NCBI RefSeq assembly: GCF_007097365.1
Contig: NZ_VJZR01000004.1
Location: 248,001-312,000 of the forward strand
DNA length: 64,000 bases
Direction of reading: 5' to 3'
Source of the DNA: Flavobacterium franklandianum
Lineage (GTDB): Bacteria > Bacteroidota > Bacteroidia > Flavobacteriales > Flavobacteriaceae
In this document: positions 32,203 to 49,960 of the stretch, piece by piece
How positions within the stretch are numbered: position 1 is the stretch's first letter
Layout of the letters: every line of letters starts with the position of its first letter
Notes under the pieces: generated by a model
Databases searched by the model: none
What the model saw: the letters and a program-made list of their open reading frames with translations, nothing else
Told to the model about the DNA's origin: nothing
Position numbers and translations under genes: made by a program

Positions 32203-33438
32203 ATGAAAAAGTTAGTGATACTTGGAGCAGGAACCGCTGGAACTATGATGGCAAGTCACCTGAGAAAAAAATTAAGCAAATCGGACTGGGAAATAACGAT
32301 TATTGACCAATGCAAGCCCCATTATTATCAACCGGGATTTTTGTTTTTACCATTTGATACTTATAAACCCGAAGATGTAAAAAAGTCTATTGACGAATTC
32401 ATTCCAAAAGGAGTGAAACTGATTCGAGAAAAAATTGACGTTATAGACAAAGATTCAGATACTGTTGTATTAGATGACGGCAAAAAATTTAAATACAATA
32501 TTTTAATCCTAGCCACAGGAACAAAGACTGCTCCCGGAGAAGTCGCGGGAATGTTAGGAGAGTATTGGTACAAATCGATTTTTGACTTTTATACTTATGA
32601 AGGGGCATTGGCACTGCGAGACAAATTAAGACTTTGGAAAGGCGGAAAACTAGTAGTTCATATTACCGAAATGCCTATTAAATGTCCTGTTGCTCCGCTA
32701 GAATTTGCTTTTCTTGCCGATTCATTCTTTATAAAAAAGGGAATGCGTGATAAAGTGGACATTACTTATGTTACACCACTTTCTGGAGCATTTACAAAAG
32801 AAAAATGTACTACAGCATTAACCTATTTATTAAACGATAAAAACATCAAAATTGTACCTGATTTTGCCGTTGAACACATCGATGGAGCCAATGGAAAAAT
32901 TGTAGATTATGGGGGAGAGGAAGTCCCTTTTGATTTATTGGTTACTATCCCAACCAATATGGGTGATGAATTAATGGCTCGTTCTGGAATCGGAAACGAA
33001 TTAAATTATGTTCCAACAGATAAAAATACGTTGCAAACCAAAGTGAAGGAAAACATTTTTGCATTGGGCGACTGTACTGATGTTCCTGCGTCCAAAGCAG
33101 GTTCTGTGGCTCACTTTCAAGCTGAAATATTGACTGAAAACATTCTACTTTATATAAAAGGTAAGGAATTAAAACCTGATTTTGATGGTCACGCCAATTG
33201 TTTTATTGAAACTGGTCACGGAAAAGCGCTCTTGATAGATTTTAATTACGAATTCGAACCCGTTAAAGGGAAATTTCCATTTGCAGGAATTGGTCCTTTG
33301 AATTTGCTTACGGAATCCCGTTTGAATCATTGGGGTAAATTAGCTTTTAGATGGATTTATTGGAATATGCTATTACCAGCAAGAAAATTGCCTTTTATTA
33401 CTCCAAAAATGAGCAAATCAGGAAAAAATTTTAACTAA
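32203..33438 (+). CDS. sqr: sulfide:quinone oxidoreductase-like FAD enzyme
   Basis: A 411-residue flavoprotein of the SQR family, which oxidises sulfide to polysulfide or bound sulfur and passes electrons to the quinone pool at the membrane. The FAD site GAGTAGTMMASHL is at residues 8-20, ATGTKT near 104, and the second FAD motif ALGDCTDVPASKAGSVAHFQ at 287-306. Cys161 (MPIKCPVAPLEF) and Cys333 (HANCFIETG) lie where SQRs keep their two redox cysteines. The C-terminus is amphipathic (RWIYWNMLLPARKLPF), suited to membrane association. It is the first gene of a three-gene sulfur operon with DsrC/TusE-like and DsrE2-like proteins, which supports sulfide as substrate. Confidence 0.88.
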   Translation: MKKLVILGAGTAGTMMASHLRKKLSKSDWEITIIDQCKPHYYQPGFLFLPFDTYKPEDVKKSIDEFIPKGVKLIREKIDVIDKDSDTVVLDDGKKFKYNILILATGTKTAPGEVAGMLGEYWYKSIFDFYTYEGALALRDKLRLWKGGKLVVHITEMPIKCPVAPLEFAFLADSFFIKKGMRDKVDITYVTPLSGAFTKEKCTTALTYLLNDKNIKIVPDFAVEHIDGANGKIVDYGGEEVPFDLLVTIPTNMGDELMARSGIGNELNYVPTDKNTLQTKVKENIFALGDCTDVPASKAGSVAHFQAEILTENILLYIKGKELKPDFDGHANCFIETGHGKALLIDFNYEFEPVKGKFPFAGIGPLNLLTESRLNHWGKLAFRWIYWNMLLPARKLPFITPKMSKSGKNFN

Positions 33439-33468
33439 AAATAATGTTTAATATAAAATAAATAAAAG

Positions 33469-33777
33469 ATGGAAAAAGTATATGCAGGAAAAACTGTTGG
33501 TGTAGATAAAGAGGGTTATTTGACAGATTTATCCCAATGGAATGCAGCAATTGCGATGGAAATTGCTAAAGAAGAAGGAGTGGAACTTACGGCCAAACAT
33601 TTTGAAGTACTCTCTTATTTACAAGACCAACAACGAAAAGAAGTGGCGTTGTCTATAAGAAGTATTGGAAAAAGTGGTGTTGTTGACATTAAACAATTTT
33701 ATGAATTGTTTCCTAAGGGGCCATTAAAAATAGCAAGCAAAATGGCTGGAATTCCAAAACCTAAAAGCTGTATTTAA
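33469..33777 (+). CDS. DsrC/TusE-family sulfur carrier with a single C-terminal cysteine
   Basis: A 102-residue protein of the DsrC/TusE/DsvC family. The C-terminal arm reads ASKMAGIPKPKSCI. The penultimate Cys101 is the sulfur-carrying residue of the family. Eleven residues earlier, where true DsrC has its second cysteine, this protein has Ser90, and there is no other cysteine. It therefore cannot form the intramolecular trisulfide described for DsrC and should act as a one-cysteine persulfide carrier like TusE. Its place between sqr and a DsrE2-like gene points to sulfur traffic rather than tRNA thiolation, but both remain possible. Confidence 0.92.
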   Translation: MEKVYAGKTVGVDKEGYLTDLSQWNAAIAMEIAKEEGVELTAKHFEVLSYLQDQQRKEVALSIRSIGKSGVVDIKQFYELFPKGPLKIASKMAGIPKPKSCI

Positions 33778-33788
33778 ATTAATTAATC

Positions 33789-34274
33789 ATGGAAGATAAA
33801 AGTAAATTTCCCGTAAAAAAAGTATTATTTATTTGTTCTAAAGCTACTTTAGAAAGTGTTTATGCTTGCTTTATAATGGCCAATGGCGCAAGAATGGAAG
33901 GCATAGAATCTGAAATATTTTTTACTTTTTTTGGATTAGAGGCTATTCAAAAAAATAAATTAGACCATTTGCATGTAGCTACCGTTGGTAATCCAGCCAT
34001 GCATATGCCAACAATGATAGGAGGTTTGCCAGGAATGGAAGCCTTAGCTACCAAAATGATGAAATCTAAAATGGAAAAATTAGACATTCCACCCGTAGGT
34101 GAATTTTTAGAAATAATGGTCGCATCGGGTGTGAAAATATGGGCTTGTAAACTAGCCATGGAAATGTTCGATTTGAAAAGAGAGGATTTAATAGATGATG
34201 TAGAAGATATTCTGACGGTTGGAGATTTTTATGGTCGAGCTGAGGGTCAAGGAACCCAGATTATATTTATCTAG
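33789..34274 (+). CDS. DsrE2-like sulfurtransferase
   Basis: A 161-residue protein of the DsrE/DsrF family, DsrE2-like subgroup. It opens with a KKVLFICSKATLESVYACF beta-alpha unit and has the likely persulfide-carrying cysteine in VKIWACKLAMEMF (about Cys120). DsrE2 proteins accept sulfur and pass it to TusA- or DsrC-type carriers in sulfur oxidisers. One could expect membrane helices in some DsrE2 proteins; this one looks amphipathic rather than clearly membrane-spanning. It lies 11 bases after the DsrC/TusE-like gene. Confidence 0.88.
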   Translation: MEDKSKFPVKKVLFICSKATLESVYACFIMANGARMEGIESEIFFTFFGLEAIQKNKLDHLHVATVGNPAMHMPTMIGGLPGMEALATKMMKSKMEKLDIPPVGEFLEIMVASGVKIWACKLAMEMFDLKREDLIDDVEDILTVGDFYGRAEGQGTQIIFI

Positions 34275-34572: not shown

Positions 34573-35553
34573 ATGTTGAAAGATAATTTTGGAAGAGCAC
34601 ACGATTATCTTCGGATCTCGCTTACCGATGTTTGCAATTTTAGATGTCAGTATTGCATTCCAGACGAAAATACTTCTTTTATGCCTTCTTCTCGTTTGAT
34701 GACGGTCGATGAAATTGATACTATAGCCCAAGAATTTGTGAAATTGGGGGTCAAAAAAATACGCCTTACCGGAGGAGAACCTTTGGTCAGAAAAGATGCT
34801 GAAAAAATTATATTAGCACTTTCCAAATATCCTGTTGAACTTACTTTAACAACAAATGGCCTCCGAACCAATGAGTTTATTGATGTTTTTAAAAAAGCAG
34901 GAATAAAATCGATCAATGTCAGTCTTGATACATTAGATAAAGACCAGTTTTTTACCATTACCAAGCGCAATGTTTTTGATAAAGTTTGGGATAACATTCA
35001 GCAACTTATAGACGAAGGATTTCATGTTAAAATTAATACAGTTGTAATGCGTGATTTTAATGATTCTGAAATTCTCGATTTTATCCAATGGACAAAAGAA
35101 CAGCCCGTTCACATCAGATTTATTGAGTTTATGCCTTTTGATAAAAACCAATGGAACACTCAGAAAGTATTTAGTTATCAGGAAATTATGGATGTTGCGG
35201 CAACAAAATACAGTTTCATCCGAATGAAAGATGGTTTGAATGAAACTGCCAAAAAATTCAAACCCTTGGGTCACGAAGGTACTTTTGCAGTTATCAGCAC
35301 AATGAGCGCTCCGTTTTGCAGCAATTGTAACCGAATGCGATTAACCGCCGATGGTAAAATGAAGAATTGTTTATTTTCAAAAGGCGAAGCCGATATTTTG
35401 ACCGCTTTACGAAATTCAGAAGATATTGTTCCAATTATAAAACAATGTGTGGCAAGCAAAGAAGAAGCATTGGGCGGACAATTTCAAGGCGATTATAAAA
35501 AAATTGATGCTACAAAAATCGCCAACAGAAGCATGATAAACATTGGAGGATAA
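34573..35553 (+). CDS. moaA: GTP 3',8-cyclase MoaA
   Basis: A 326-residue radical-SAM enzyme that starts molybdenum-cofactor synthesis by converting GTP to the 3',8-cyclo form. The N-terminal cluster motif is CNFRCQYC (Cys21, Cys25, Cys28). The second iron-sulfur site near the C-terminus is CSNCNRMRLTADGKMKNC. The protein ends with the double glycine (SMINIGG) that is essential in MoaA. The gene begins the Moco cluster, about 300 bases after the sulfur operon. Confidence 0.97.
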   Translation: MLKDNFGRAHDYLRISLTDVCNFRCQYCIPDENTSFMPSSRLMTVDEIDTIAQEFVKLGVKKIRLTGGEPLVRKDAEKIILALSKYPVELTLTTNGLRTNEFIDVFKKAGIKSINVSLDTLDKDQFFTITKRNVFDKVWDNIQQLIDEGFHVKINTVVMRDFNDSEILDFIQWTKEQPVHIRFIEFMPFDKNQWNTQKVFSYQEIMDVAATKYSFIRMKDGLNETAKKFKPLGHEGTFAVISTMSAPFCSNCNRMRLTADGKMKNCLFSKGEADILTALRNSEDIVPIIKQCVASKEEALGGQFQGDYKKIDATKIANRSMINIGG

Positions 35554-35609
35554 CCCTTTTTTTTGAATACCGTTATTCCTTTTTTGGCATATCGAAAATA
35601 AATATAAAA

Positions 35610-36785
35610 ATGATAAATGTAAAAGAAGCCAAAAAGCTAATCGAAGAGAATTGCTGTACATTGAGAGTAGAAACCTTGACCTTGCTTGAAGCCAACGGAA
35701 GCATTTTGGCGGAGCCTATTTATGCCGTAATAGACACGCCACCGTTCCACCAATCGGCAATGGATGGATATGCTTTTTCCTTTGAAAATTGGGACAAAAA
35801 AAGTGATTTAACGGTCATTGGCGAAATTCAAACGGGTAATTATTCAAACAAAATAGTACAATCGAATGAAGTTGTAAGGATATATACTGGAGCTCCAATT
35901 CCTCCGGGTACAGATACTGTTGTAATGCAGGAAAAAATTAGTAAAGACGGAAATACGATTCAAATTCTGGATCCTTTTTTGGTCAAAGGTACGAATGTTC
36001 GTCCTCAAGGTTCTCAGACACAAAAAGGAGAAATGGCGTTGCAAGAAAGACAGTTGTTGACACCAGTTGCGATTTCTTTTTTAGCAGGAATTGGTATCAG
36101 TAAAGTGAATGTTTTTTCGAAACCAACTGTGAGTATTATTGTAACGGGCAAAGAACTTGCTGCTGCAAATGACGAAATCTCAGAAGGAAAAATTTTCGAA
36201 TCCAATTCCATTGGTCTGATTGCAGCACTCCACCAATTAGGAATAAATCCAGTTTCCGTCGAAGTGGTCGATGATGTCGAAGAAGAAATTGAAAAAGCCA
36301 TTTCCAATCAATTGAGTTCCGATATTCTGATTCTTACGGGTGGAGTTTCGGTGGGTGATTATGATTTAGTTCCCGATTCATTAGAAAAATGTGGGGTTCA
36401 AAAAATATTTCACAAAATCAAACAAAAACCAGGAAAACCCTTTTATTTTGGGCGTCACAACCAAACCTTGGTATTTGCTTTGCCTGGAAATCCAGCGGCG
36501 GTAATGAGCTGTTTTTATGAATATGTGGCTCAGGTAATTAGCAGTTTTACACAGAAAGAATATTTCAAGAAAATGGCATTTCCATTGGCAGACGATTTTA
36601 ATAAGAATGCTGGTTTAACCTTTTTTCTGAAAGGAAAAATGGGTGAAAAAGCGGTGACTGTTTTGAACAATCAAGAAAGTTATAAGCTCAATTCTTTTGC
36701 TGTGGCGGATTGCCTGATTGAATTTGATGAAGAGAAAGAGATTTTCAAAAAAGGGGATTTGGTAAATGTTAGAATGATTTTGTAA
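35610..36785 (+). CDS. moeA: molybdopterin molybdotransferase MoeA
   Basis: A 391-residue MoeA that inserts molybdate into adenylated molybdopterin. Visible motifs are PPFHQSAMDGYAF near residue 46, RIYTGAPIPPGTD near 90, and LTGGVSVGDYD near 241, which is the MPT-binding GDYD loop. LPGNPAAVMSCF near 294 is also typical. The length is normal. Confidence 0.97.
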   Translation: MINVKEAKKLIEENCCTLRVETLTLLEANGSILAEPIYAVIDTPPFHQSAMDGYAFSFENWDKKSDLTVIGEIQTGNYSNKIVQSNEVVRIYTGAPIPPGTDTVVMQEKISKDGNTIQILDPFLVKGTNVRPQGSQTQKGEMALQERQLLTPVAISFLAGIGISKVNVFSKPTVSIIVTGKELAAANDEISEGKIFESNSIGLIAALHQLGINPVSVEVVDDVEEEIEKAISNQLSSDILILTGGVSVGDYDLVPDSLEKCGVQKIFHKIKQKPGKPFYFGRHNQTLVFALPGNPAAVMSCFYEYVAQVISSFTQKEYFKKMAFPLADDFNKNAGLTFFLKGKMGEKAVTVLNNQESYKLNSFAVADCLIEFDEEKEIFKKGDLVNVRMIL

Positions 36786-36832
36786 AGCTTTTTTGTCATA
36801 ATATTTTGTTGCCTCTTTTCAAAACATTAATA

Positions 36833-36955
36833 GCCTCAAGCTTTAGCTGGAGAATAAAATTTAGATGATTAATATGGCTTTAGCCAAAATAGTATTGTTT
36901 TTGGCTAAAGCCAATGTTACATTGATTACCTATTCCTCCAGCTAAAGCTGAAGGC
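36833..36955. repeat. nested inverted-repeat (REP-like) element
   Basis: The outer arms gcctcaagctttagctgga (36833) and tcctccagctaaagctgaag (36934) are inverted copies with small mismatches. Inside them tggctttagcca (36875-36886) and tggctaaagcca (36902-36913) are exact inverted copies, each itself nearly palindromic. The element could fold as one long hairpin or as two cruciforms. It fills most of the moeA to regulator gap, where no gene is visible. Confidence 0.75.
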
Positions 36956-37007
36956 AATAGAAAATTATTGATAGGCTGAATAGTTATGCTTTTTTAAACT
37001 AAAAAAA

Positions 37008-37340
37008 ATGAAAAATTTAATAATCAAAGGACATCTTTCGATTGAAAATAGCAAAGGCCATTTGATGGGAATGGGAAAAAAAGAATTGCTCGAAAAAATC
37101 AAAGAAACGGGTTCTATCAAAGCGGCTGCAATCGAAATGAAAATTTCCTATCGGCACGCTTGGGAAATGATAAAAAAAATGAACACTATTTCAGATGCTC
37201 CTCTGGTTATAAAAAACACGGGCGGTTCCAGCGGAGGTGGTACTATTGTTACAAAAGAAGGTGAGGAACTGATAGCTTGTTACATCAAATTGAACGCTGC
37301 TTTCGAAGAATTTAAAGAGCAAATCTGTAAAACTATTTAA
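37008..37340 (+). CDS. ModE-like winged-helix regulator, DNA-binding domain only
   Basis: A 110-residue LysR/ModE N-terminal type winged helix. The core is KIKETGSIKAAAIEMKISYRHAWEMIKKM (positions 30-60), and NTGGSSGGGTIVTKEGEELI forms the wing as in ModE. The TOBE molybdate-binding domains of full ModE are missing, so it cannot sense molybdate the classical way. The Moco-cluster location nevertheless supports a role in molybdenum metabolism. It is followed 5 bases later by the TauE/SafE gene. Confidence 0.88.
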   Translation: MKNLIIKGHLSIENSKGHLMGMGKKELLEKIKETGSIKAAAIEMKISYRHAWEMIKKMNTISDAPLVIKNTGGSSGGGTIVTKEGEELIACYIKLNAAFEEFKEQICKTI

Positions 37341-37344
37341 ACGT

Positions 37345-38076
37345 ATGTACCAAGAAATTTTATTTTATGTGTTGCTGGTGCTGGTCGCTTTTCTTTATTC
37401 TTCTGTGGGTCACGGTGGAGCAAGTGGCTATTTGGCGTTAATGGCATTTTTTTCATTTGCCCCCGAGACAATGCGATCAACGGCTTTATTGCTGAATATT
37501 TTTGTTTCATTAATTGCTTTTATTCAATATTATCGTGGCGGATTTTTTAAATGGAATTTGTTTTGGCCATTTGCACTTGCTTCTTTTCCAGCGGCATTTA
37601 TCGGTGGAATGATTACAGTTGATGTTGGTTTGTATAAAAAAATTCTAGCGGTACTTTTGCTGTTTTCGGTGGTAAAATTGTTGGGAATTAAATTCAAAAC
37701 TGCAACATTCGATCTAAGGCAAAACGTCTTCCTCGCGCTTTTAATAGGGGCAATCATCGGATTATTTTCAGGAATGATAGGAATAGGTGGTGGCATTATT
37801 TTGACTCCAATTATTTTACTGATGCATTGGGCAGATATGAAAAAAACTGCCGCAGTTTCGTCTTTATTCATTTTTGTAAATTCAATTGCTGGATTTGCAG
37901 GGCTTTTTACCAAAGGGTTTGAATTTAAAACAGAAATGGGATGGATGATTGTTCTTGCATTAATTGGCGGAATTGCAGGATCTTATTTTGGAGCTAATAA
38001 ATTTAAAAGTGATTTTTTGAATAAATTATTAGCCATCGTCTTGATTATAGCTTCCATAAAATTAATTTTTACCTGA
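37345..38076 (+). CDS. TauE/SafE-family membrane exporter
   Basis: A 243-residue membrane protein with about eight helices. It has the duplicated family motif: SSVGHGGASGYLALMAFF near residue 19 and GMIGIGGGIILTPIILLM near residue 141. Members move sulfite, sulfoacetate, taurine-derived or other small anions across the inner membrane. Placement in a Moco cluster next to sulfur genes suggests export of sulfite or uptake of a related oxyanion, but the substrate cannot be read from sequence. Confidence 0.88.
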   Translation: MYQEILFYVLLVLVAFLYSSVGHGGASGYLALMAFFSFAPETMRSTALLLNIFVSLIAFIQYYRGGFFKWNLFWPFALASFPAAFIGGMITVDVGLYKKILAVLLLFSVVKLLGIKFKTATFDLRQNVFLALLIGAIIGLFSGMIGIGGGIILTPIILLMHWADMKKTAAVSSLFIFVNSIAGFAGLFTKGFEFKTEMGWMIVLALIGGIAGSYFGANKFKSDFLNKLLAIVLIIASIKLIFT

Positions 38077-38078
38077 TA

Positions 38079-38666
38079 ATGGATACTAAAATAAAACACA
38101 TAAATGCTTATATTTTGGCAGGTGGCAAAAGCTCAAGAATGGGCACTGACAAAGGTTTGCTTCTCTTTGAAGGAAAACCAATGATTCAATATGTAATGGA
38201 GCAAATGCAACCCATTTTTGACAAAATAGTTATCGTTTCTAATAATCTCGAATACGAAAAATTTGGATTGGAAGTGATTCCCGATTTGATAAAAGCGATT
38301 GGACCTGCAGGTGGAATTTACACCGCTTTAAATCATTCGGATTGTCAATTGAATTTTATGGTGAGTTGCGATATGCCTTTTGTGACTGCAGCAGCGATTG
38401 AATTTATTTTAAAAAATGCTCAGGAAAACCAAATTGTTTTATTGGAAAATCAAGGAAAAATAGAACCCTTGTTTGGAATATATTCTAAAGAGTGTGAGGA
38501 GATTTGGTTGCAACTCATCGGGCAAGAAAAGGTTAAATTACAAGACATGGTTTTGCACTTTAGATTGAAGACGATTCCAGTTGAAAATAACGAAATTTTT
38601 GCAGCAACCTTTTTCAAAAACATCAATACAAAGGAGGATTTTAACAACGTATCTAAACTAATTTAA
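38079..38666 (+). CDS. mobA: molybdenum cofactor guanylyltransferase MobA
   Basis: A 195-residue nucleotidyltransferase that adds GMP to Mo-molybdopterin, making the bis-MGD cofactor of the DMSO-reductase family. The GTP site is LAGGKSSRMGTDKGLL (residues 13-28). Later motifs are IKAIGPAGGIYTAL near 70-83 and VSCDMPFV near 95. Its presence implies that the cell makes MGD-type molybdoenzymes, although none lies in this window. It starts 2 bases after the exporter gene. Confidence 0.95.
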   Translation: MDTKIKHINAYILAGGKSSRMGTDKGLLLFEGKPMIQYVMEQMQPIFDKIVIVSNNLEYEKFGLEVIPDLIKAIGPAGGIYTALNHSDCQLNFMVSCDMPFVTAAAIEFILKNAQENQIVLLENQGKIEPLFGIYSKECEEIWLQLIGQEKVKLQDMVLHFRLKTIPVENNEIFAATFFKNINTKEDFNNVSKLI

Positions 38667-38667
38667 A

Positions 38668-38901
38668 ATGGACATAAACTTACTGGCGTTTGGAATAATT
38701 GCCGAAATAACAGGCAAATCAGCGTGGAAAATGGCTGGGATAAAAGATACCAATGAGTTGATAAATAACTTGGAAACACAATTCCCTGCATTGTCCACAA
38801 CAAGTTTTTCTATTGCTGTAAATAGAAAAGTAATTCAGGACAATATAATATTTAACGAGAATGATACAATAGCTTTGCTTCCCCCATTTTCAGGCGGATA
38901 A
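38668..38901 (+). CDS. moaD: molybdopterin synthase small subunit MoaD
   Basis: A 77-residue ubiquitin-like sulfur carrier that ends in the required double glycine (ALLPPFSGG). As a thiocarboxylate it donates sulfur to precursor Z on MoaE. It starts one base after mobA ends. Confidence 0.95.
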   Translation: MDINLLAFGIIAEITGKSAWKMAGIKDTNELINNLETQFPALSTTSFSIAVNRKVIQDNIIFNENDTIALLPPFSGG

Positions 38902-38999
38902 AATGTTCTTATGAACCATTAAGTAATTTAAGGTTCATTCAGCAAAAAACTTAATTTTCTTAATGATTGAAATAAGTAACGGATACTTGTAAAGAATAT

Positions 39000-40127: not shown

Positions 40128-40573
40128 TGAAAGAGAAAAACACACACAACGTATTTATCAATGGACCAATAACGCCCGAGTTTATTGCTAATAGCATTGC
40201 CAAACACAGCACCAAAACCGACATTGGAGCACACGATATATTTTTAGGACAAGTCCGAAGCGATATAATTGAAGGCAAAACAGTGGTTGCTATCAACTAC
40301 GAAGCCTATCAGGAAATGGCGGACGAACTTTTCCACGAAATCCGTGAAGCTGCGTTTGCCAAATACAATTTAGTGTGTATGCACATTTATCATAGCCTTG
40401 GAGCGGTAAAAGCGGGTGAAATATGCCTGTTTGTATTTGTTTCATCCAAACACCGCAAAGAAGCTTTTGACGCTTGTCAGGATATTGTCGAACAAATAAA
40501 GGCGATGACTCCCATCTGGGGAAAAGAAATTTTCGAAGATGATTCTTTTGTATGGAAAGAAAATCAACTTTAG
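40127..40573 (+). CDS. moaE: molybdopterin synthase large subunit MoaE
   Basis: A 148-residue MoaE, the catalytic half of molybdopterin synthase. I choose the ATG at 40127, overlapping the moeB stop by one base; an in-frame ATG at 40097 would extend into moeB. Key motifs are HDIFLGQVRSD (about 38-48), IYHSLGAVKAGEICLFVFVSSKHR and IKAMTPIWGKE with the conserved lysines. Confidence 0.95.
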   Translation: MKEKNTHNVFINGPITPEFIANSIAKHSTKTDIGAHDIFLGQVRSDIIEGKTVVAINYEAYQEMADELFHEIREAAFAKYNLVCMHIYHSLGAVKAGEICLFVFVSSKHRKEAFDACQDIVEQIKAMTPIWGKEIFEDDSFVWKENQL

Positions 40574-40574
40574 T

Positions 40575-40646
40575 AATGGCAATATCAATGGCAATAACAA
40601 TATTAATGTCAATGTCAATAACAATGTCAATGTCAATGTCAAAAAC
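40575..40646 (+). repeat. hexamer array (aatgtc/aataac/aatggc)
   Basis: Twelve consecutive six-base units of the form aatNNc start right after the moaE stop codon; aatgtc occurs five times. Variation between units is limited to the last three or four bases. Confidence 0.8.
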
Positions 40647-40653
40647 AATTATT

Positions 40654-40811
40654 TCCAACTTCCAACTTCCAACCTCTAACTTCTAACTTCCAACCTCTAA
40701 CCTCTAACTTCTAACTTCTAACTTCTAACTTCTAACTTCTAACTTCTAACTTCTAACTTCCAACCTCTAACCTCTAACCTCTAACCTCTAACCTCTAACC
40801 TCAAACCTCAA
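40654..40811 (+). repeat. heptamer tandem array abutting moaCB start
   Basis: Twenty-two uninterrupted seven-base units of the form tcYaacY (tctaact, tctaacc, tccaact, tccaacc, last unit tcaaacc) run from 40654 to 40807. A 23rd unit, tcaaATG, contains the moaCB start codon. Together with the hexamer array this is the entire moaE-moaCB gap. Confidence 0.93.
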
Positions 40812-41723
40812 ATGGTCAATATAACATTCAAATCCAATACCCTTCGGATTGCCAAAGCGCAAGCCGTTGTAAGAGTCAGCAAAAAAGAAACTATTGATGC
40901 CATTGTCAATAAAACAGTTCCTAAAGGAGATGTTTTCGAGATGGCCAAAACCGCAGGACTCTTTGCCGTAAAACGCACCAGTGATATGATTCCGGATTGT
41001 CATCCCATTCCTGTAGAATTTACCGCTGTTCGATATACTATAAACGAGTTGGAAATCGCTATCGAAATCGAAGTACATACTATTTACAAAACAGGAGTTG
41101 AAGTCGAAGCAATGCACGGAGCCTCGGTTGTGGCGTTGACGATGTATGATATGCTGAAACCTATCGACAAAGGAATCGAAATTCATTCTATAAAATTATT
41201 GGAAAAAAGAGGAGGCAAATCCGATTTTACCGATAAATTCCGCACCGATTTGAAAGCAGCCGTCATTGTATGTTCCGACAGTATTTCGGCTGGGAAAAAA
41301 ATTGACATGGCTGGAAAAGCCATTATCCAAAAATTAGAAACCTGTAATGTTAGTATTAGCGATTATTCGATTATTTCGGACGATACAGTTGGGATTCAAG
41401 AAAAAGTTTTGGATTTGTATGCGCAAAATATAGACCTTATAATATTGACTGGTGGAACAGGGATTTCGCCAAGAGATAATTCGCCAGAAGCCATAAAACC
41501 GCTTTTAGATAGAGAAATTCCAGGTATTATGGAAGCCGCACGCAATTATGGGCAAGATCGCACCCCTTTTTCTATGTTGTCACGTGGGATTGCTGGAATG
41601 ATAGGCAAAACACTAATTATGACTTTGCCTGGTTCAACCAAAGGAGCTCAGGAATCTATGGACGCTTTGTTTCCCTCTCTTTTGCATATTTTTAGAGTGG
41701 TCGAAGGAAAACAACACGAATAA
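40812..41723 (+). CDS. moaCB: MoaC-MoaB fusion (cyclic pyranopterin phosphate synthase + molybdopterin adenylyltransferase)
   Basis: A 303-residue two-domain protein. Residues 1-150 are MoaC, which with MoaA makes cyclic pyranopterin monophosphate (motifs [20 protein letters not shown] and [21 protein letters not shown]). Residues about 155-303 are MoaB/Mog-like, which adenylates molybdopterin before molybdate insertion ([38 protein letters not shown]). MoaCB fusions are known in other bacteria. The start codon lies inside the last unit of a heptamer array, so repeat length could affect translation. It is last in the Moco cluster. Confidence 0.95.
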
Positions 41724-42100: not shown

Positions 42101-43174
42101 ATGAAAGCAGTTAAACAAATTATGTTAGTTGTTTTGGGGCTATTTTTTTTCGCCTTACAAGGGTGTTCTCACGAAGACTATATTCCAGTTCCTGGTCCAG
42201 CGGGTGCAGATGGAACAAATGGAACAAATGGAATTGATGGAACTACAGAATGTGCTACTTGTCACTCTAAAGCACACACAGGTCCAATTAAAGCTTCTTA
42301 TGCTTTGTCTGTTCATGCAATTGAAACCTTACATGAAACTACAAATGCAAGTGGAGCCACAATTACTCTAAAGACTTCAGAATATACAAACAGGACGGGT
42401 TGTGTTCAGTGTCATACCAGTCAAGGTTATATAGATAAAGTAAATGGCGATGTTCTTAAAACTGGGACTGGAACAGCCTTAGGTTTTCCTGCTTATCCAG
42501 GAGGTAAACAAGCAATTTCTTGTACAACATGCCATGATAAACATTCTAGTTTTGATTTTAAAAATGATGGTAATGATTTTGCTCTTAGACAAGGGTTTAC
42601 CCCAGTTGTTTTAGCTACAGATGCTTCTTATAAAATTGAAATGGGTACAAGTAATACTTGTGTCAACTGTCACCAACCAAGAGCTATAGTACCTACAACA
42701 GGGGACATTAAATTGAGTAATCGTTTTGGACCTCATTATGGTCCACAATCTACCTTATTAGAAGGTATTCAAGGAGCTTTAATTGTTGGATCAACTCCTT
42801 ATCCAGCACCTAAGTCTGCTAAACATAGAACAGGCGCATCTTGTGTAACTTGTCATATGGGTAAAGATAGTGAAGCTACAAACGGAGCCCATACATGGAA
42901 GCCGACTCCAAATGCTTGTACTACTTGTCATGCAGGAGGTACTCCAACTTCTGTTACTGGTTATGCTGCTGATATGGCAACATTAGAAGAGTTATTAGTT
43001 GCAAAAGGAGCTTATAGTACTACTACGAACTCTTTAACTACAGCTACAGTTCCTATTAAAGTGGCACAAGCAGCTTGGAATTATGTTATGTTAAAACAAG
43101 ATAAGAGTAATGGGGTTCATAATCCAGCCTACGCAAAAGCTTTATTGAAAAACTCAATTGAAGCTATAAAATAA
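42101..43174 (+). CDS. hexaheme c-type cytochrome lipoprotein
   Basis: A 357-residue multihaem cytochrome. The lipoprotein signal ends ALQGC (Cys22), followed by acidic SHEDY, which resembles Bacteroidota surface-export signals. Residues 31-48 are a short collagen-like run of G-x-x triplets. Six CxxCH haem sites follow: CATCH (51), CVQCH (101), then CTTCH, CVNCH, CVTCH and CTTCH through about residue 290, with spare histidines for axial ligation. The protein could shuttle electrons at or outside the outer membrane, or carry an enzymatic haem; no known reductase signature is recognised. It is first in an operon with a monohaem lipoprotein and a DUF5777 barrel and has the Crp/Fnr-like site upstream. 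Confidence 0.92.
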   Translation: MKAVKQIMLVVLGLFFFALQGCSHEDYIPVPGPAGADGTNGTNGIDGTTECATCHSKAHTGPIKASYALSVHAIETLHETTNASGATITLKTSEYTNRTGCVQCHTSQGYIDKVNGDVLKTGTGTALGFPAYPGGKQAISCTTCHDKHSSFDFKNDGNDFALRQGFTPVVLATDASYKIEMGTSNTCVNCHQPRAIVPTTGDIKLSNRFGPHYGPQSTLLEGIQGALIVGSTPYPAPKSAKHRTGASCVTCHMGKDSEATNGAHTWKPTPNACTTCHAGGTPTSVTGYAADMATLEELLVAKGAYSTTTNSLTTATVPIKVAQAAWNYVMLKQDKSNGVHNPAYAKALLKNSIEAIK

Positions 43175-43182
43175 AAAATAGA

Positions 43183-43215
43183 ATACCTCTGGGCTTAGTC
43201 TCAGAGGTATTTATT
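43183..43215 (+). terminator. terminator or attenuator after the hexaheme gene
   Basis: atacctctg / cagaggtat arms with a 10-base loop, followed by ttattttaaa. The weak T run may allow read-through to the monohaem gene. 43216-43341 holds no gene. Confidence 0.7.
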
Positions 43216-43341
43216 TTAAATTGTTAAAGAATAGAAATTATTTTTTAACAATACAACAATTGCTCACATAACTTTAAATCTTTTGGCAATGAAAATTGTT
43301 GCATAAGACTCTATAGCAATTATTCAATAAAAAAATAAAAG

Positions 43342-43725
43342 ATGAAAAAAATATTTCAATACTTAATGATGTTAACAGTGATTTTGATGGCTACATCCTG
43401 TTATTATGACGAGATGCCACCAGAAGCTGAAATTGTTATTCCAGAAGTAGTTTCTTACTCAAAAGATATTCAACCATTATGGGATCAAGATTGCGTAAGT
43501 TGTCATAAAACGGGAGCGACTGCCCCTGATTTAATAACGGCCAATTCCTATTTAGCGTTAACGAAAAATAACAAATATGTTATTCCAGGAAATGCGGCTG
43601 CAAGTAGTTTGCACAAATCTCTAGTTGGAGATGGTGCAGCAATTATGCCAACTGCAGGAAAATGGAGCGATTCAAAAATTGCTTTGGTGGACAAATGGAT
43701 CAACAATGGAGCGCTTAATAATTAA
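43342..43725 (+). CDS. monohaem c-type cytochrome lipoprotein
   Basis: A 127-residue lipoprotein (signal ending MATSC, Cys20) with YYDE right after the lipidated cysteine. A single haem site CVSCH (about residue 52) opens a compact cytochrome domain whose N-terminal text YSKDIQPLWDQDCVSCH is typical of small planctomycete/Bacteroidota-type cytochrome c domains. Met ligand candidates lie in IMPTAGKWSD. It lies 17 bases before the DUF5777 gene, so the two form one unit. Confidence 0.9.
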   Translation: MKKIFQYLMMLTVILMATSCYYDEMPPEAEIVIPEVVSYSKDIQPLWDQDCVSCHKTGATAPDLITANSYLALTKNNKYVIPGNAAASSLHKSLVGDGAAIMPTAGKWSDSKIALVDKWINNGALNN

Positions 43726-43741
43726 CTATAAATTGAAAATC

Positions 43742-44602
43742 ATGAAATTATTAAAAACACTATTTATAGTTGTGTTTGCTTTGCCAACGATGTTATTGGC
43801 TCAAGAGCAAAAAGACACTACCGCCGTTGTTGTTGACAGCGTTGCACCAGTTATAGAAGTAGAATTGGAGCGAGCCGCTTTCGAAAGTACTTCATTGATC
43901 GAAAACCAAACCAATCGTGTGTATTCAAAGGGTACTATCGAAATGATCATGAATCACCGTTTTGGTTTAGTGACCGGAACAAATGATTTAATTGGAATTT
44001 GGGCACCAGCCAATATTCGTTTAGCCGTAAATTATTCGATTACCGATAGAATTACTGTTGGATACGGAACTACCAAAGACTTTAGATTGCAAGATTTTAG
44101 TTTGAAAGCAGCTATTTTACGCCAAACAGTCAATGGAAAAATGCCAGTGAGTGTTACTTATTATGGAAATGCATCGCTTAGTGCTTTGCCAAAAGAGAAT
44201 TTTTATAACACGTCAGATCGTTGGTCATTTTATAACCAAATCATAATTGCAAAACGTTTGAGTAAAATGTTTTCGTTACAAATTGGGCCAAGTTATTCCC
44301 ACTACAATGTAGTCGAAGCTGGAATGTATAATGATTTATTTGCCATTCAGTTTGGTGGTCGAGCCAAAGTGACATCAGGAATCTCTATTCTATTGGATGT
44401 GAATCAGCCAATTAGTTCTCAAGAAGCTTTGCCTAAATCTGGATTTTCTGTTGGAACAGAATTTTCGACCGTTGGACATACCTTTCAAATTTTCGTAAGC
44501 AATTACAGAGGAATAATAAATCAAACTAGTAATATGTTCAATCAAAATGACTTCTTCAAAGGTGATTTTGCTATTGGATTTAATATAGGAAGAACTTGGT
44601 AA
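43742..44602 (+). CDS. DUF5777-family outer-membrane beta-barrel protein
   Basis: A 286-residue barrel. I choose Met at 43742 (MKLLKTLFIVVFALPTMLLAQ, a good signal peptide); the frame is open further upstream only across the cytochrome gene. The body alternates hydrophobic and polar residues (IRLAVNYSITDRITVGYGTT, FQIFVSNYRGII), as in an outer-membrane barrel, and it ends with aromatic Trp. DUF5777 has no assigned function. Coupling to two cytochrome lipoproteins suggests a porin-cytochrome conduit, by analogy with MtrCAB-type complexes, though the families differ. Confidence 0.82.
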   Translation: MKLLKTLFIVVFALPTMLLAQEQKDTTAVVVDSVAPVIEVELERAAFESTSLIENQTNRVYSKGTIEMIMNHRFGLVTGTNDLIGIWAPANIRLAVNYSITDRITVGYGTTKDFRLQDFSLKAAILRQTVNGKMPVSVTYYGNASLSALPKENFYNTSDRWSFYNQIIIAKRLSKMFSLQIGPSYSHYNVVEAGMYNDLFAIQFGGRAKVTSGISILLDVNQPISSQEALPKSGFSVGTEFSTVGHTFQIFVSNYRGIINQTSNMFNQNDFFKGDFAIGFNIGRTW

Positions 44603-44655
44603 TAGTCTATTAATCCCATTTGTGTTAACCACAATACTGTGTAACACTTCAATAA

Positions 44656-44708
44656 AAAAAGAGGATTCTGACTCCATAAAAGGATAAGTTTATCCTCTTT
44701 TTTTTGCA
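44656..44708 (+). terminator. terminator after the DUF5777 gene
   Basis: The compact hairpin aggataa-gt-ttatcct at 44681-44696 is followed by ctttttttt. A wider pairing of aaaagaggat with atcctctttt encloses it. Confidence 0.85.
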
Positions 44709-44799
44709 TTTATAAAGAATAGTTTTAGGTATTTTGCTAATTTTTTTTATTCAAATATTTGATTTTAAAGTAGTTGAATTTAGTTTAAAAATTTAAAAG

Positions 44800-44845
44800 T
44801 ATGATAAATATCATTGAAATTAAGATAAAATTGATAGAAATTTAC
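44800..44845 (+). promoter_or_regulatory. Crp/Fnr-like dyad plus AAATTTAC box before the FeS gene
   Basis: TATGA-taaata-TCATT (44800-44815) followed by aaatttac at 44838-44845. The distance from the dyad centre to the box is 30.5 bases, identical to the hexaheme promoter at 41982-42027. The FeS gene starts 84 bases beyond the box. The gap 44709-44928 has no gene. Confidence 0.65.
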
Positions 44846-44928
44846 AAGAGAATTCTAATTCAAAACACAAATAATACTATAAGAATAGTTATTGTTTTAT
44901 GAATTTCTAAAAGGTAATATATAACAAT

Positions 44929-45864
44929 ATGGAAAAAGAAAATAACAATTCATCCAGAAGGAATTTTCTAAAATTGGGTGCTTTAGGAGGAATAGCTTTG
45001 GCAGGAACTGCAATTGCAAACGCCGTTATTGATGAAAGTCCAAAAATTACAGAAAAAAAAGTAAAAGTACTTACTGCTGATGGAAAATTAGTAGAAATTG
45101 ATAGCTCTCTGGTTGATCACCACGCATCCAATGATGATTTTTCGAATGCAGAACTTCGTCAAGGAGTGGAAGGGAAAAAATTTATTCGTGTGATCGATTT
45201 AGGCAAATGTGCCAATGAGAGAAAATGTATTACAGGATGTCAAAAAGCACATAATGTTTTAGCACCAGTGGAGTATATAAAGGTAAAAAAAATGCAAAAT
45301 TCGCCTTTAGAATCTCCATATTGGTTTCCAACTATGTGTTACCATTGCGACAATCCTCCTTGTACAAAAGTTTGCCCTGTAGATGCAACATTCAAACGTT
45401 CTGACGGAATTGTGGCTATGGATTACGAACGTTGTATAGGTTGTAAATTTTGTATAGCTGCTTGTCCATATTCAGCTCGTACATTCAATTTTGGAAGACC
45501 TGAACAAGTAAAATTTACCGAAGAACATAAAAACGATACTTCCGATCCAAATCACTGTAGAACGCCTTACGCTCAGGAAGGAACGGTGGCAAAATGTGAT
45601 TTCTGCACAGATCGTTCAGCTCAAGGATTATTACCAGCTTGTGTTATTGAATGTCCAAACGGTGCCATTTATCACGGTGATGAATTAGAAGATGTTGTCT
45701 CTAACGGAGAAGATACCGTTAGATTAAAAAAATTATTACAAGACAGAGCAGGATATCGCCAATTTGAAGAATTGGGAACAAAACCAAGGGTCTATTATTT
45801 ACCACCAGTGAAACGTGATTTTCCGTTTGAAGATGCAACCCAAGCTCAAAATACAAAGGAGTAA
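44929..45864 (+). CDS. Tat-exported 4Fe-4S dicluster protein (PsrB/DsrO type)
   Basis: A 311-residue periplasmic ferredoxin-like electron carrier. The Tat signal is SSRRNFLKLGALGGIALAG (residues 8-26). Iron-sulfur cysteines occur in four groups: CANERKCITGC, CYHCDNPPCTKVCP, CIGCKFCIAACP, and the CDFC...CVIEC pair, enough for four [4Fe-4S] clusters as in PsrB, TtrB, NrfC or DsrO. It passes electrons between a membrane quinol protein (next gene) and a periplasmic catalytic partner. A Mo-bis-MGD or siroheme partner is not encoded nearby. It forms an operon with the NrfD protein 19 bases downstream. Confidence 0.93.
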   Translation: MEKENNNSSRRNFLKLGALGGIALAGTAIANAVIDESPKITEKKVKVLTADGKLVEIDSSLVDHHASNDDFSNAELRQGVEGKKFIRVIDLGKCANERKCITGCQKAHNVLAPVEYIKVKKMQNSPLESPYWFPTMCYHCDNPPCTKVCPVDATFKRSDGIVAMDYERCIGCKFCIAACPYSARTFNFGRPEQVKFTEEHKNDTSDPNHCRTPYAQEGTVAKCDFCTDRSAQGLLPACVIECPNGAIYHGDELEDVVSNGEDTVRLKKLLQDRAGYRQFEELGTKPRVYYLPPVKRDFPFEDATQAQNTKE

Positions 45865-45883
45865 TCTTTTTAAAAAATAAAAA

Positions 45884-47245
45884 ATGTCTAAAAATATAAA
45901 TAAACACGAAACCTTTACTCAAGAAGAGTATATGGTGATGAAAAACGACCTGCTTCGTCCAATAGCAAAAATTGGAAAAGCCGGTAAAATATGGATTGCA
46001 TTTCTAGTGGTCGTATTATTAGCTGGAATTGTTGCCTATATTATACAAGAAACTAAAAGCAAATATGTTACTACTAGTTTAAGAGATTATACAATGTGGG
46101 GAATATACATTTCTAACTTTTTGTTTATGGTCGCCATCGGTTTAGTAGGCGTGCTAATGTCGGCTGTACTTAAACTTACTAATTTTGAATGGTACAGACC
46201 CCTTTCCAGAATAGCCGAAGTTATTGCTATTGGTGCCATAATGTTTGGTGGGATAAGTATTGTTGTGGCAATGGGAAGACCCGATAGATTATTAAATTTA
46301 TTCATTCATGGTAGAATTCAGTCGCCTATTATTTGGGATGTTATCGGAATTTCAACAGATCTTGCAGCTTGCATTATTTTGCTTTTTATTCCATTAATTC
46401 CTTCATTGGTGACCTGTAAAAACCATTTGAAAAATTTACCTAAATGGCAATTAAAAATGTACAATATGCTTTCTTTTGGATGGCAAGGCACTCCCGAACA
46501 ATGGGAAATATTAAAAAAAACTATGAAAGTATTGACGGCTTTGGTAATTCCGTTGGGAGTTGTGATTTGCACGATTACGGCTTGGTTGTTTGCAACAACG
46601 CTAAGACCAGAATGGGATAGTACAAATTTTGGAGCCTATTTTGTTTCAAATGCCTTTTTATTGAGTGTAGCTGTAATGACTTTAGCCACTTTTGTTTTTA
46701 GAAAAGCTTATAATTTTGAAAAATATTTAACCGAAATGCACTTCGATAAATTGGGACAAGCTTTGGTATTAATGGCTTTAATTCACGGCTATTTTAATGT
46801 CAACGAATATTTGATTCCCGCTTATAAAATGTCGGGATTACACGAAAACACACTGCTAAACTTATTTACAGGCAAAGAAGCCGCTTTTTATTGGTCAGTA
46901 GTAATTTTTGGTATAATTGTACCCATTTTATTGCCCCTATTTCCAAAAATGCGAAAACCACTTCCTTTGACAATTATTTCAATTGTAGTATTAATTGCAG
47001 GCTGGTTTAGACTTTATTTAATTGTAATTCCAGGATTACTTCATCCTTATCTTCCAATACAAGACGTACCTGAATCGTGGACACATTATTTTCCTAGTGT
47101 GGTAGAAATGACCGTTGTTGCTGCAACATTTGCTGGCGTACTATTAATAGTGACTTTGTTCTCAAGATATTTTCCTATTATTTCTGTATGGGAAGTAGCA
47201 GAAGGTGAATTAGAAGGAAAAGAAGAAATATTTAATTATAAATAA
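45884..47245 (+). CDS. NrfD/PsrC-family membrane quinol protein
   Basis: A 453-residue integral membrane protein with about ten helices, of the NrfD/PsrC/DsrP family, which exchanges electrons between menaquinone and a partner iron-sulfur protein. A charged N-terminal stretch precedes helix 1 (WIAFLVVVLLAGIVAYII). Typical text includes GRPDRLLNLFIHGRIQSPIIW near residue 129 and ENTLLNLFTGKEAAFYW near 325. At 453 residues it is longer than minimal NrfD, closer to ten-helix members such as ActC or DsrP. Combined with the upstream FeS protein it forms a quinol/periplasm electron module. Confidence 0.92.
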   Translation: MSKNINKHETFTQEEYMVMKNDLLRPIAKIGKAGKIWIAFLVVVLLAGIVAYIIQETKSKYVTTSLRDYTMWGIYISNFLFMVAIGLVGVLMSAVLKLTNFEWYRPLSRIAEVIAIGAIMFGGISIVVAMGRPDRLLNLFIHGRIQSPIIWDVIGISTDLAACIILLFIPLIPSLVTCKNHLKNLPKWQLKMYNMLSFGWQGTPEQWEILKKTMKVLTALVIPLGVVICTITAWLFATTLRPEWDSTNFGAYFVSNAFLLSVAVMTLATFVFRKAYNFEKYLTEMHFDKLGQALVLMALIHGYFNVNEYLIPAYKMSGLHENTLLNLFTGKEAAFYWSVVIFGIIVPILLPLFPKMRKPLPLTIISIVVLIAGWFRLYLIVIPGLLHPYLPIQDVPESWTHYFPSVVEMTVVAATFAGVLLIVTLFSRYFPIISVWEVAEGELEGKEEIFNYK

Positions 47246-47252
47246 TTTACAG

Positions 47253-47810
47253 ATGAAAAAGCATACCTATTTCTTAATATCTTGCTTAGTAATTTTGTTT
47301 TCGATTACAACTTCCTACGCACAAGATAAAGAAGCAAAAATTACCTTAACCTTTAAAAAAATAGATTCAGTCAACGTTTGCAAAGCTTTTGTGACTTCAG
47401 AAGGACAACCCGTAATTGAAGTACCGGTAAATTTATCGGTCAAACGATTGTTTGCTAAGTTGCCTATTGGAGATGCCATTGCTACAGATTCTACAGGGGT
47501 TGCGACTTTCGAATTTCCTAATGATATACCCTCTAAAAACGGCAAATTAACCCTATTTGCTAGTATAGTAGATGACGAAAACTATATGAACTCTGAAACT
47601 AGTGGAGAAGTGAATTGGGGCACAGTAGTTGTAACTGATAACTCCAATATAGATGAACGTTCTTTTTCTGCAGGACGAGATAGAGCACCAATATATTTTA
47701 TAACGATTTCACTGTTAATTTTAGGCTTGATATGGGGAACTTTATTGTTTGCAGTTTTGCAGGTTTTCAAAATAAAAAAATTAGGAAAAATTCAAGAAAT
47801 TAAAGAGTAA
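47253..47810 (+). CDS. membrane-anchored periplasmic protein of unknown function
   Basis: A 185-residue protein with a signal peptide (SCLVILFSITTSYAQ), a beta-rich periplasmic domain (about 24-145, with APVNLSVKRLFAKLP-like Ig or carboxypeptidase-regulatory text), and a C-terminal membrane helix (YFITISLLILGLIWGTLLFA, about 148-168) with a basic cytoplasmic tail. It starts 7 bases after the NrfD gene, so it is probably a structural subunit of the complex. I do not recognise a named family. Confidence 0.78.
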   Translation: MKKHTYFLISCLVILFSITTSYAQDKEAKITLTFKKIDSVNVCKAFVTSEGQPVIEVPVNLSVKRLFAKLPIGDAIATDSTGVATFEFPNDIPSKNGKLTLFASIVDDENYMNSETSGEVNWGTVVVTDNSNIDERSFSAGRDRAPIYFITISLLILGLIWGTLLFAVLQVFKIKKLGKIQEIKE

Positions 47811-47846
47811 CATTTATAACAAGTATTAATATTAAAATTCAAAAAA

Positions 47847-48242
47847 ATGAAAAAAATCTTTTTTGGGCTAGCTATTATGGCAGCCTTTATGTTCGCCCAA
47901 ACTTCTAATGCTCAAGCAAAACCAAAAGGAAAAGAATGGAAAGTTCCTGCTGCAGATGCTGGTAAAAAAAGCCCAGCTGGTGTTGAGGCTGCTGCTGGTA
48001 AAGCATTGTGGGGAACCAATTGTAAATCATGTCACGGTACAAAAGGATTGGGTGACGGTCCTAAAGCAGAAAAAATTGACATTTCTAGTGGTGATTTTTC
48101 TTCTAAAGACTTCCAATCTAAATCTGATGGATCATTGTTTTACTACACAAAAATTGGTAGAAAACCAATGCCTTCTTATAAAGAAAAATTAAGTGATTCT
48201 GAAATATGGCAATTAGTGGCCTATATGAGAACAATGAAATAA
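47847..48242 (+). CDS. periplasmic class I cytochrome c
   Basis: A 131-residue small cytochrome with a cleavable signal peptide (ending SNAQA). The haem site is CKSCH (about residue 60) followed by GTKGLGDGPKAEKID, the usual class I pattern, and a Met ligand in GRKPMPSY (about residue 110). It lacks a lipobox, so it is soluble. It is last in the operon FeS - NrfD - membrane protein - cytochrome, and could accept electrons from the module or deliver them to an oxidase. Confidence 0.93.
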   Translation: MKKIFFGLAIMAAFMFAQTSNAQAKPKGKEWKVPAADAGKKSPAGVEAAAGKALWGTNCKSCHGTKGLGDGPKAEKIDISSGDFSSKDFQSKSDGSLFYYTKIGRKPMPSYKEKLSDSEIWQLVAYMRTMK

Positions 48243-49957: not shown

Positions 49958-49960
49958 TGT

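Follow-up and report, generated by a model that had tools for sequence, protein, structure and literature searches.

Three separable gene modules, among them a candidate quinone-linked cytochrome unit, in one chromosomal slot of Flavobacterium franklandianum

Electron transfer at the cell surface is well documented in Shewanella and Geobacter, and in the MtrCAB conduits a large barrel encloses a decahaem cytochrome. To our knowledge, such transfer is hardly described in Flavobacterium, which belongs to a phylum whose quinol is menaquinol. A structure that recurs in the comparisons below is 6btm, which we take to be the alternative complex III (ACIII) of Flavobacterium johnsoniae. One account describes NrfD-like proteins as quinone-interacting membrane subunits (PMC8076601). 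We analyzed a 64,000-nucleotide stretch of Flavobacterium franklandianum DNA (NCBI RefSeq assembly GCF_007097365.1, contig NZ_VJZR01000004.1, positions 248,001 to 312,000), here called the window, that carries genes of this kind. It lies on the contig that we label C33, in a genome of 3.83 Mb and 38 contigs.

Within 16 kb of the window three gene sets follow one another on the + strand: module A with genes of sulfur metabolism (32203-34274), module B with genes for synthesis of the molybdenum cofactor (Moco; 34573-41723), and unit C with genes for haem lipoproteins, a predicted outer-membrane barrel, and an NrfD-family protein (42101-48242). They are flanked on the left by a PIG-L/SSF gene pair (27375-31858) and on the right by a DUF2911-HAD-KdsC-DUF2520-ccsBA series (48384-54687; KdsC and HAD labelled by eye). 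A sequence-only reading had described the 16 kb as one dedicated system for respiring or oxidizing sulfur compounds. The genes that it listed are all present as open frames on the + strand, near where it had placed them and of the families it had named, and it left out two genes that are described below. Its unifying idea fared less well. Both outcomes that it had named as refuting this idea were observed, namely unlinked modules in a relative and a lone PF00384 enzyme among genes of the nitrate-assimilation type. We think it likely that three separable modules make up the 16 kb as a patchwork within a single exchange slot, with unit C a quinone-linked electron carrier and module B serving a NasA-type enzyme.

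Separability of the modules and their shared slot

The modules are separable because unit C is far from modules A and B in one relative (G286), module A stands apart in all five relatives that carry it, and unit C exists without Moco genes. On the main contig of G286 (4.5 Mb) the iron-sulfur (FeS) gene of unit C is at 1,833,694, dsrC at 4,199,243, and moaCB at 10,483. If this contig is circular, about 0.3 Mb separates module A from module B, with unit C at least 1.8 Mb from each. The moaCB gene of G286 is of the commoner Moco lineage and 60% identical to that of the window. A sulfide:quinone reductase gene (sqr) of the window type was found in 6 of 398 Flavobacterium genomes, with the window genome counted. 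In all five other carriers dsrC and dsrE2 directly follow sqr, and modules B and C are both absent from the 14-20 kb fetched around it. A dsrC match was found in 2 of 150 Flavobacterium genomes and unit C in 11 of 150. Because moaCB was unmatched in 6 of these 11 (G162, G176, G209, G211, G216, and G285; 76-96% complete), unit C appears to be independent of Moco. These six genomes weigh for separability, but the adjacency of B and C in close relatives weighs against it.

The slot itself is bounded by the SSF gene of the PIG-L/SSF pair and by DUF2911 of the DUF2911-HAD-KdsC-ccsBA series. Unit C is its sole occupant in four loci (L040, L042, L067, and L076, the last with a divergent, dihaem-headed unit), and the same arrangement is seen in G374 (L086), where the contig stops inside. 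G376 has B and C in the slot, Flavobacterium alvei has a Phs-type block followed by B and C, and the window has A, B, and C in that order. In the intergenic DNA past SSF the window and G376 can be aligned to about base 225 (69%), and a 79-base stretch upstream of sqr aligns with its counterpart at another sqr locus (73%); both alignments are expected if module A was inserted into the slot.

The block of F. alvei encodes a PhsA-like enzyme with a twin-arginine translocation (Tat) signal assigned by eye (454.6 bits against a PhsA cut-off of 694), a 178-residue FeS protein, a 314-residue NrfD protein, a decahaem cytochrome, rhodaneses, a porin, and two YedE-type proteins, one assigned by family and one by eye. 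Its PhsA-like gene is about 22 kb upstream of the FeS gene of unit C, and tauE and moaD were not matched in module B of F. alvei. G192 is similar in that FeS, NrfD, YedE-type, decahaem, and rhodanese genes adjoin its module B, with the contig stopping inside the FeS gene. Judging from these comparisons, a putative sulfur-type molybdoenzyme has held this slot in the sister F. alvei and not in the window genome. The sulfur link that had been proposed thus survives in the relatives, where such an enzyme occupies the same slot (F. alvei) and B adjoins C (three genomes), and does not extend to the window genome.

Taken by itself, the region in F. alvei (L131 7550-20000) and G192 (L070 8700-18753) resembles a sulfur or chalcogen respiration island, which also includes a Crp-like regulator. 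The PhsA-like enzyme is seen in F. alvei only, and the G192 contig stops before reaching that position. For the decahaem of this island the nearest family is ExtM, known from selenite/tellurite operons, at 192 bits against a cut-off of 800.

Composition and distribution of unit C

Unit C begins with what we call the head, an exchangeable protein that is in the window a hexahaem lipoprotein (42101-43174) with six CxxCH motifs and an MtrC/MtrF-like domain (PF22113). This is followed by a monohaem lipoprotein (43342-43725; lipobox context C-Y-Y-D-E, one CxxCH), a DUF5777 outer-membrane beta barrel (43742-44602; PF19089, 234.8 bits on a longer frame, the start codon having been picked by comparing relatives), a 311-residue FeS protein with a Tat signal (44929-45864; SRRNFLK, by eye; PF13247 and FeS-cluster Cys motifs), an NrfD-family membrane protein (45884-47245; PF03916), a 185-residue protein (47253-47810), and a monohaem cytochrome c (47847-48242; PF00034 and PF13442) exported by a signal sequence recognized by eye. 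The 185-residue protein is one of the two genes missing from the earlier list. By eye, it has a signal sequence and, at its C terminus, a membrane helix, and no match was found for it in Pfam, NCBIfam, or the PDB. It is conserved beside NrfD, and in the majority of distant loci it has a longer form of about 280-330 residues or is fused to NrfD. The nearest solved chains to the cytochrome c are 9vr0_A and 7o9u_A, cytochrome c552.

To compare units we used 35 rows, the window and 34 loci, from 34 genomes; some loci are cut by contig ends, and L049 and L057 both come from G047. The rows exclude four fragments (L035, L037, L039, and L045), L072, which is on the same contig as L038, and L046 from Salipaludibacillus, whose FeS protein is 32% identical. 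They also exclude L123 (G032), a phylum-level FeS match (45% over 172 residues) that adjoins a molybdopterin guanine dinucleotide (MGD) subunit. We took this locus for another complex and dropped it, because its NrfD is just 23% identical and neither a DUF5777 nor a monohaem gene was found there. The monohaem lipoprotein and DUF5777 genes accompany FeS and NrfD in 31 of the 35 rows; they are absent from L043 and L057 and cut off in L058 and L079. The monohaem gene of L044 was identified by its position and CX4CH motif rather than by BLAST. This motif takes the place of CxxCH in L118, L119, and L120 as well as in L044.

None of the 35 loci, each covering up to about 20 kb, has an MGD open reading frame (ORF). 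This was determined with a profile made from five MGD proteins that recovers its own five members and, weakly, the degenerate ActB domain (17.4 bits). The PhsA-like gene of F. alvei falls outside the range covered. The sequence-only reading was correct that no MGD enzyme lies within the 16 kb, and it regarded one as missing. Results from the 35 loci, together with the six C genomes that had no moaCB match, indicate that the FeS/NrfD pair is not short of a molybdoenzyme partner. As judged from its genes, unit C is a conserved and self-contained unit with nothing missing.

In a family-level draw NrfD scored above 200 bits in 12 of 149 genomes, and in a phylum-level draw the FeS protein was matched at 1e-40 in 8 of 296, one of which is the dropped G032. 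The unit with its lipoproteins and barrel is retained across several Bacteroidota families. In four Flavobacteriaceae (G103, G106, G125, and G133; loci L048, L050, L051, and L052) the part comprising the FeS, NrfD, 185-residue, and cytochrome genes is tandemly duplicated, and one copy in L048 and L051 has NrfD fused to the next gene. A midpoint-rooted tree of 43 NrfD proteins placed 19 ActC rows in one clade (100/100) and 20 of 22 C rows in another (92/83); the remaining two C rows are long-branched and fall on the ActC side. Unit C seems to be an undescribed gene set: it was not described in the titles or abstracts of the literature matches listed, which cover neither subscription journals nor preprints, and DUF5777 gave no matches there. 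A separate set of NrfD, FeS, and small four-haem cytochrome genes stands beside unit C in two Flavobacteriaceae (L050 14627-17041 and L057 12360-14769). No molybdoenzyme was found in either locus, with Pfam run on L050 only.

The heads, each encoded ahead of the monohaem lipoprotein, differ in type between rows. Hexahaem lipoproteins occur in 14 rows, dihaem lipoproteins in 8, EB_dh-type lipoproteins in 8, and a YceI-like head in 1; in 4 rows none was recognized and in 3 the position is cut. Three of the eight rows with EB_dh also have a hexahaem, and the EB_dh of L051 is cut by a contig end. Pfam served for the dihaem heads in L041 and L073 and for the EB_dh heads in L052, L044, L053, L119, and L120; the rest were assigned by BLAST. 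Each of the six CxxCH motifs is invariant across 15 hexahaem sequences. Six further His residues (72, 148, 212, 242, 264, and 340) are conserved in these sequences, His 72 in 14 of 15. One extra conserved His per haem is the pattern of a bis-His electron carrier, and all haems of this head are probably bis-His, which would make it a carrier rather than an enzyme. A sequence search of the PDB with the hexahaem gave weak matches only.

The lipobox Cys of the hexahaem has the context C-S-H-E-D by eye. The four positions that follow the presumed lipid Cys include an acidic residue in 29 of 30 heads, often just one; these Cys residues were assigned without a lipobox predictor. The surface lipoprotein export signal reported for F. 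johnsoniae is SDDFE (PMC5080379). The acidic residues of the heads are reminiscent of this signal and make surface exposure of the heads plausible. A structural model of the DUF5777 protein has about 12 strands at low confidence, with a mean predicted local distance difference test (pLDDT) score of 54. Its first PDB matches are a COG4313 channel, a general porin, and FapF, with query template modelling scores of 0.39-0.51. We also considered a split Cyc2, with the monohaem lipoprotein inside the DUF5777 barrel. This was set aside because the model has no more than about 12 strands, at low confidence.

The sulfur module and the molybdenum cofactor cluster

Module A consists of genes for a type III sulfide:quinone reductase (Sqr; 32203-33438; NF049943, 629.7 bits, above the curated cut-off of 525), a DsrC/TusE-family carrier (33469-33777; PF04358, 92.9 bits; TIGR03342, 82.2 bits), and a DsrE2-type protein (33789-34274; PF13686, 119.1 bits; NF047629, 107.2 bits, under the cut-off of 210). 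From these families, module A would serve sulfide detoxification and a sulfane-sulfur relay, in which electrons from Sqr would enter the quinone pool and the sulfur would be carried by DsrE2 and DsrC/TusE. The consecutive order of the three genes is what would be expected of a relay of Sqr with DsrE2/TusA/DsrC. Unlike that relay, the window DsrC holds one of two C-terminal Cys: the penultimate Cys is kept and a Ser stands where DsrC has its second Cys. This sqr/DsrC arrangement was not described among the literature matches listed, with the same coverage as above.

Module B begins with MoaA (34573-35553; PF04055 and PF06463) and MoeA (35610-36785; PF03453, PF00994, and PF03454), followed by a protein with a ModE-like DNA-binding domain (37008-37340; TIGR00637, 89.2 bits, slightly under the cut-off of 98.5), a TauE/SafE-family transporter (37345-38076; PF01925), and MobA (38079-38666; PF12804). 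The remaining genes encode a MoaD-like small subunit (38669-38902), a MoeB/ThiF protein with a rhodanese domain (39000-40127; PF00899 and PF00581), MoaE (40097-40573; PF02391), and MoaC fused to a MoaB/Mog-type (MoCF) domain (40812-41723; PF01967 and PF00994). The MoaD-like ORF, assigned by eye from its Gly-Gly end, is matched in L036 (49%) and L069 (51%). It is the second gene that the sequence-only reading overlooked. That reading was right about the cluster and its MobA and called the pathway near-complete; with the MoaD-like ORF counted, the pathway looks complete. A TauE gene is also present within Moco clusters of the commoner type (G286 and G293; L068 and L080), so TauE is no marker of sulfur respiration. 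The gap between moaE and moaC (40640-40810) contains a run of degenerate short repeats (ctaacttctaactt...).

The presence of MobA had been taken to predict an MGD enzyme, and there is one on another contig. A PF00384 search of the window genome returned a single protein, a 1171-residue fusion on contig C9. It combines a catalytic half of the NasA/NapA/formate-dehydrogenase type with a NirB-like half binding flavin adenine dinucleotide and a BFD domain. Its neighbors (locus L002; labels beyond Pfam matches by eye) are an NrtABC-like ATP-binding cassette transporter, a Crp-type regulator, a SUMT-like protein, and a nitrite/sulfite-reductase half-domain protein with a rubredoxin tail. A NasA-type MGD enzyme thus stands with genes for nitrate transport and nitrite reduction, the combination expected of assimilatory nitrate reduction, and the fusion is probably an assimilatory nitrate reductase. 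Module B would then provide complete Moco synthesis with this NasA-type enzyme as its client. The Tat-signal PsrA-like enzyme suggested earlier as the missing partner did not turn up in this search, and the only PF00384 enzyme found lies among genes of the nitrate-assimilation type, unrelated to sulfur. A sulfite-oxidase-type client was considered as well, and a PF00174 search of the window genome found none.

PF00384 frames of at least 1118 residues are present in 39 of 150 Flavobacterium genomes; moaCB is in 38 of these 39, within 10 kb in 24 (a tally made by eye, with frames classed by length alone). The Moco lineage of the window is rarer: moaCB is 94% identical in G192 and 89% in G242, and other full-length matches are at most 65% identical. 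In G242 a module B of the window type adjoins a formate-dehydrogenase-like enzyme (Pfam; label by eye) and not unit C (L069 and L077). G376 (L036 and L085) has a Moco cluster beside unit C in a 98%-complete genome in which no PF00384 enzyme was found. Outside the three modules, a 3017-residue protein encoded at 18238-27291 of the window has SprB repeats, PKD domains, and a CHU_C secretion domain and is of the gliding/adhesin type.

Readings of the locus and comparison with known systems

Unit C is probably a quinol-linked electron branch to outer-membrane cytochromes. (Mena)quinol would be oxidized at the ActC-like NrfD subunit, and electrons would pass from there by way of the FeS protein, which is exported by Tat, to the cytochrome c in the periplasm. 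They would then reach the monohaem lipoprotein of the outer membrane and an interchangeable head, here the hexahaem, with which the DUF5777 barrel would be associated. The reverse direction of electrons through unit C may also occur. More tentatively, and with some doubt on our part, unit C may be a new Bacteroidota system of electron export or uptake, in which a quinol dehydrogenase derived from ACIII, without a molybdoenzyme-type subunit, is combined with cassette-like surface haem heads.

Several observations weigh against a patchwork with a quinone-linked carrier and a NasA-type client. The DUF5777 barrel is, from its model, probably too narrow to enclose a multihaem protein, which leaves electron crossing of the outer membrane unexplained, and the model of the hexahaem (mean pLDDT 40.5) failed and was not used. 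The 1171-residue fusion reaches the cut-off of none of the NCBIfam models listed (NasC, 527.1 bits against 1100; NasA, 485.3 against 1000), its top score being to formate dehydrogenase alpha (593.8 against 666). Module B of the window type adjoins unit C in four of the five genomes seen (the window, G192, G376, and F. alvei, not G242), in each case bordering the hexahaem gene. No PF00384 enzyme was found in the B-bearing G376 (98% complete) and G192 (93%). Sulfur genes stand near unit C in F. alvei and G192 (the Phs-type blocks), and rhodanese/metallo-lactamase genes do so in L041 and L043. Finally, unit C is present in 5 of 6 sqr genomes as against 11 of 150 Flavobacterium genomes overall.

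This last pattern was considered as a sign of joint function and set aside, because the carriers are close kin. The nearest kin of the window genome, with ActB at least 88% identical to its own, number nine, of which eight have unit C and five have sqr. The sole sqr genome outside this group (G457) is without unit C, and sqr and dsrC were not matched in six further C genomes (G162, G176, G211, G216, G242, and G285). The kinship set of 50 genomes was made up of 15 carriers and 35 hand-picked non-carriers, with no random draw. In it the ActB identity of G316 was judged from two fragments, and G162 and G285, with no ActB match past the threshold, have no assigned kinship to the window. As an observation in its own right, L041 (13589-17330) has genes for a thioredoxin, a rhodanese, and two metallo-lactamase/rhodanese fusions directly after its dihaem-headed unit C.

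The co-location of A, B, and C in the window, the PhsA-like block in the same slot of F. alvei beside the same kind of B and C, the comparable block beside the Moco cluster of G192, and the adjacency of B and C in G192, G376, and F. alvei could all be read as traces of one sulfur-compound respiration or oxidation system whose molybdoenzyme is elsewhere or lost. We consider this quite improbable given the distances in G286, the isolation of module A in five of five relatives, the four slots held by unit C alone, the lack of a PsrA-like enzyme among the PF00384 matches of the window genome, the six C genomes, of 11, in which moaCB was not matched, and the formate-dehydrogenase-like neighbor of window-type Moco genes in G242. 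It is also unlikely that unit C is a degenerate ACIII, either relic or duplicate, that feeds the ordinary oxidases and has the same cytochrome c as its electron acceptor. Its NrfD is indeed nearest to ActC, and the window genome retains ACIII-type genes beside oxidase-type genes on contig C22. By contrast, a relic would hardly be expected to keep its lipoproteins and barrel in several Bacteroidota families or to be tandemly duplicated in its FeS/NrfD/cytochrome part in four genomes.

Heads from unrelated families on one chassis are what would be seen if unit C were an enzyme system, with the head as terminal reductase or oxidase and its type setting the substrate. The EB_dh and dihaem heads could offer open haem sites for this. 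We are rather doubtful of it because the six spare conserved His for six haems in the hexahaem follow the pattern of an electron carrier and because L121 and L122 have no recognizable head.

On the patchwork account, unit C is a conserved and compact chassis whose haem heads can be exchanged. It offers a testable candidate for surface electron transfer in Flavobacterium, and it illustrates how an ACIII-type quinol subunit may be re-used without its usual partner. If electrons are exported in this way, an otherwise aerobic Flavobacterium would gain a choice of extracellular redox partners. The slot series of C, B+C, Phs+B+C, and A+B+C is a clear case from nature in which respiratory modules are exchanged at a single chromosomal position, and it cautions against inferring one pathway from co-location in a single genome.

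As a comparison, several described systems share parts with unit C. With the MtrCAB conduits it has in common a multihaem lipoprotein, whose MtrC/MtrF-like domain is weak (41.1 bits, cut-off 30), a barrel, and a link to a quinone-type membrane protein; it differs in its partner, which has a single haem, and in the barrel, modelled at low confidence with about 12 strands, and it is at most a candidate conduit. The FeS and NrfD proteins score best among NCBIfam models to DsrO and DsrP of DsrMKJOP, but neither reaches its curated cut-off (172.6 against 200 for DsrO and 89.6 against 350 for DsrP). The DsrO model is unspecific, as the FeS protein of the F. alvei Phs-block scores 167.1. DsrM, DsrK, and DsrJ were not recognized among the genes of unit C, to which the search for them was confined. 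The PhsABC/PsrABC-type enzymes likewise have an FeS protein and NrfD, and a PhsA-like block lies in the F. alvei slot, but no molybdoenzyme accompanies unit C in any of the 35 loci and its NrfD is ActC-like with about 450 residues, versus 314 in the F. alvei Phs-block. More generally, the complex iron-sulfur molybdoenzymes (CISM; Psr, Phs, Ttr, and Soe) have an MGD subunit beside FeS/NrfD, which 0 of 35 C loci do, and the one PF00384 match of the window genome is elsewhere.

The likeness to ACIII (ActABCDEF) is closer. The best match of the NrfD protein is subunit C of that complex (6btm_C, 157 bits, E 7.5e-45), the FeS protein matches the C-terminal part of ActB (6btm_B, 69.5 bits; other FeS subunits score up to 91.4), and a monohaem cytochrome c follows. 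Unlike ACIII, unit C has neither the multihaem ActA nor the molybdopterin-like domain of ActB, its FeS protein being 311 residues long. It has one NrfD per unit and no ActF, the extra NrfD in G103, G106, G125, and G133 belonging to the second FeS/NrfD/cytochrome copy. It also has lipoproteins, a barrel, a 185-residue protein without a PDB match, and its own branch in the NrfD tree (20 of 22 rows). By these sequence comparisons unit C belongs to none of ACIII, DsrMKJOP, and the CISM enzymes, and by analogy it is most like a quinol oxidation module of the ACIII type joined to outer-membrane cytochromes.

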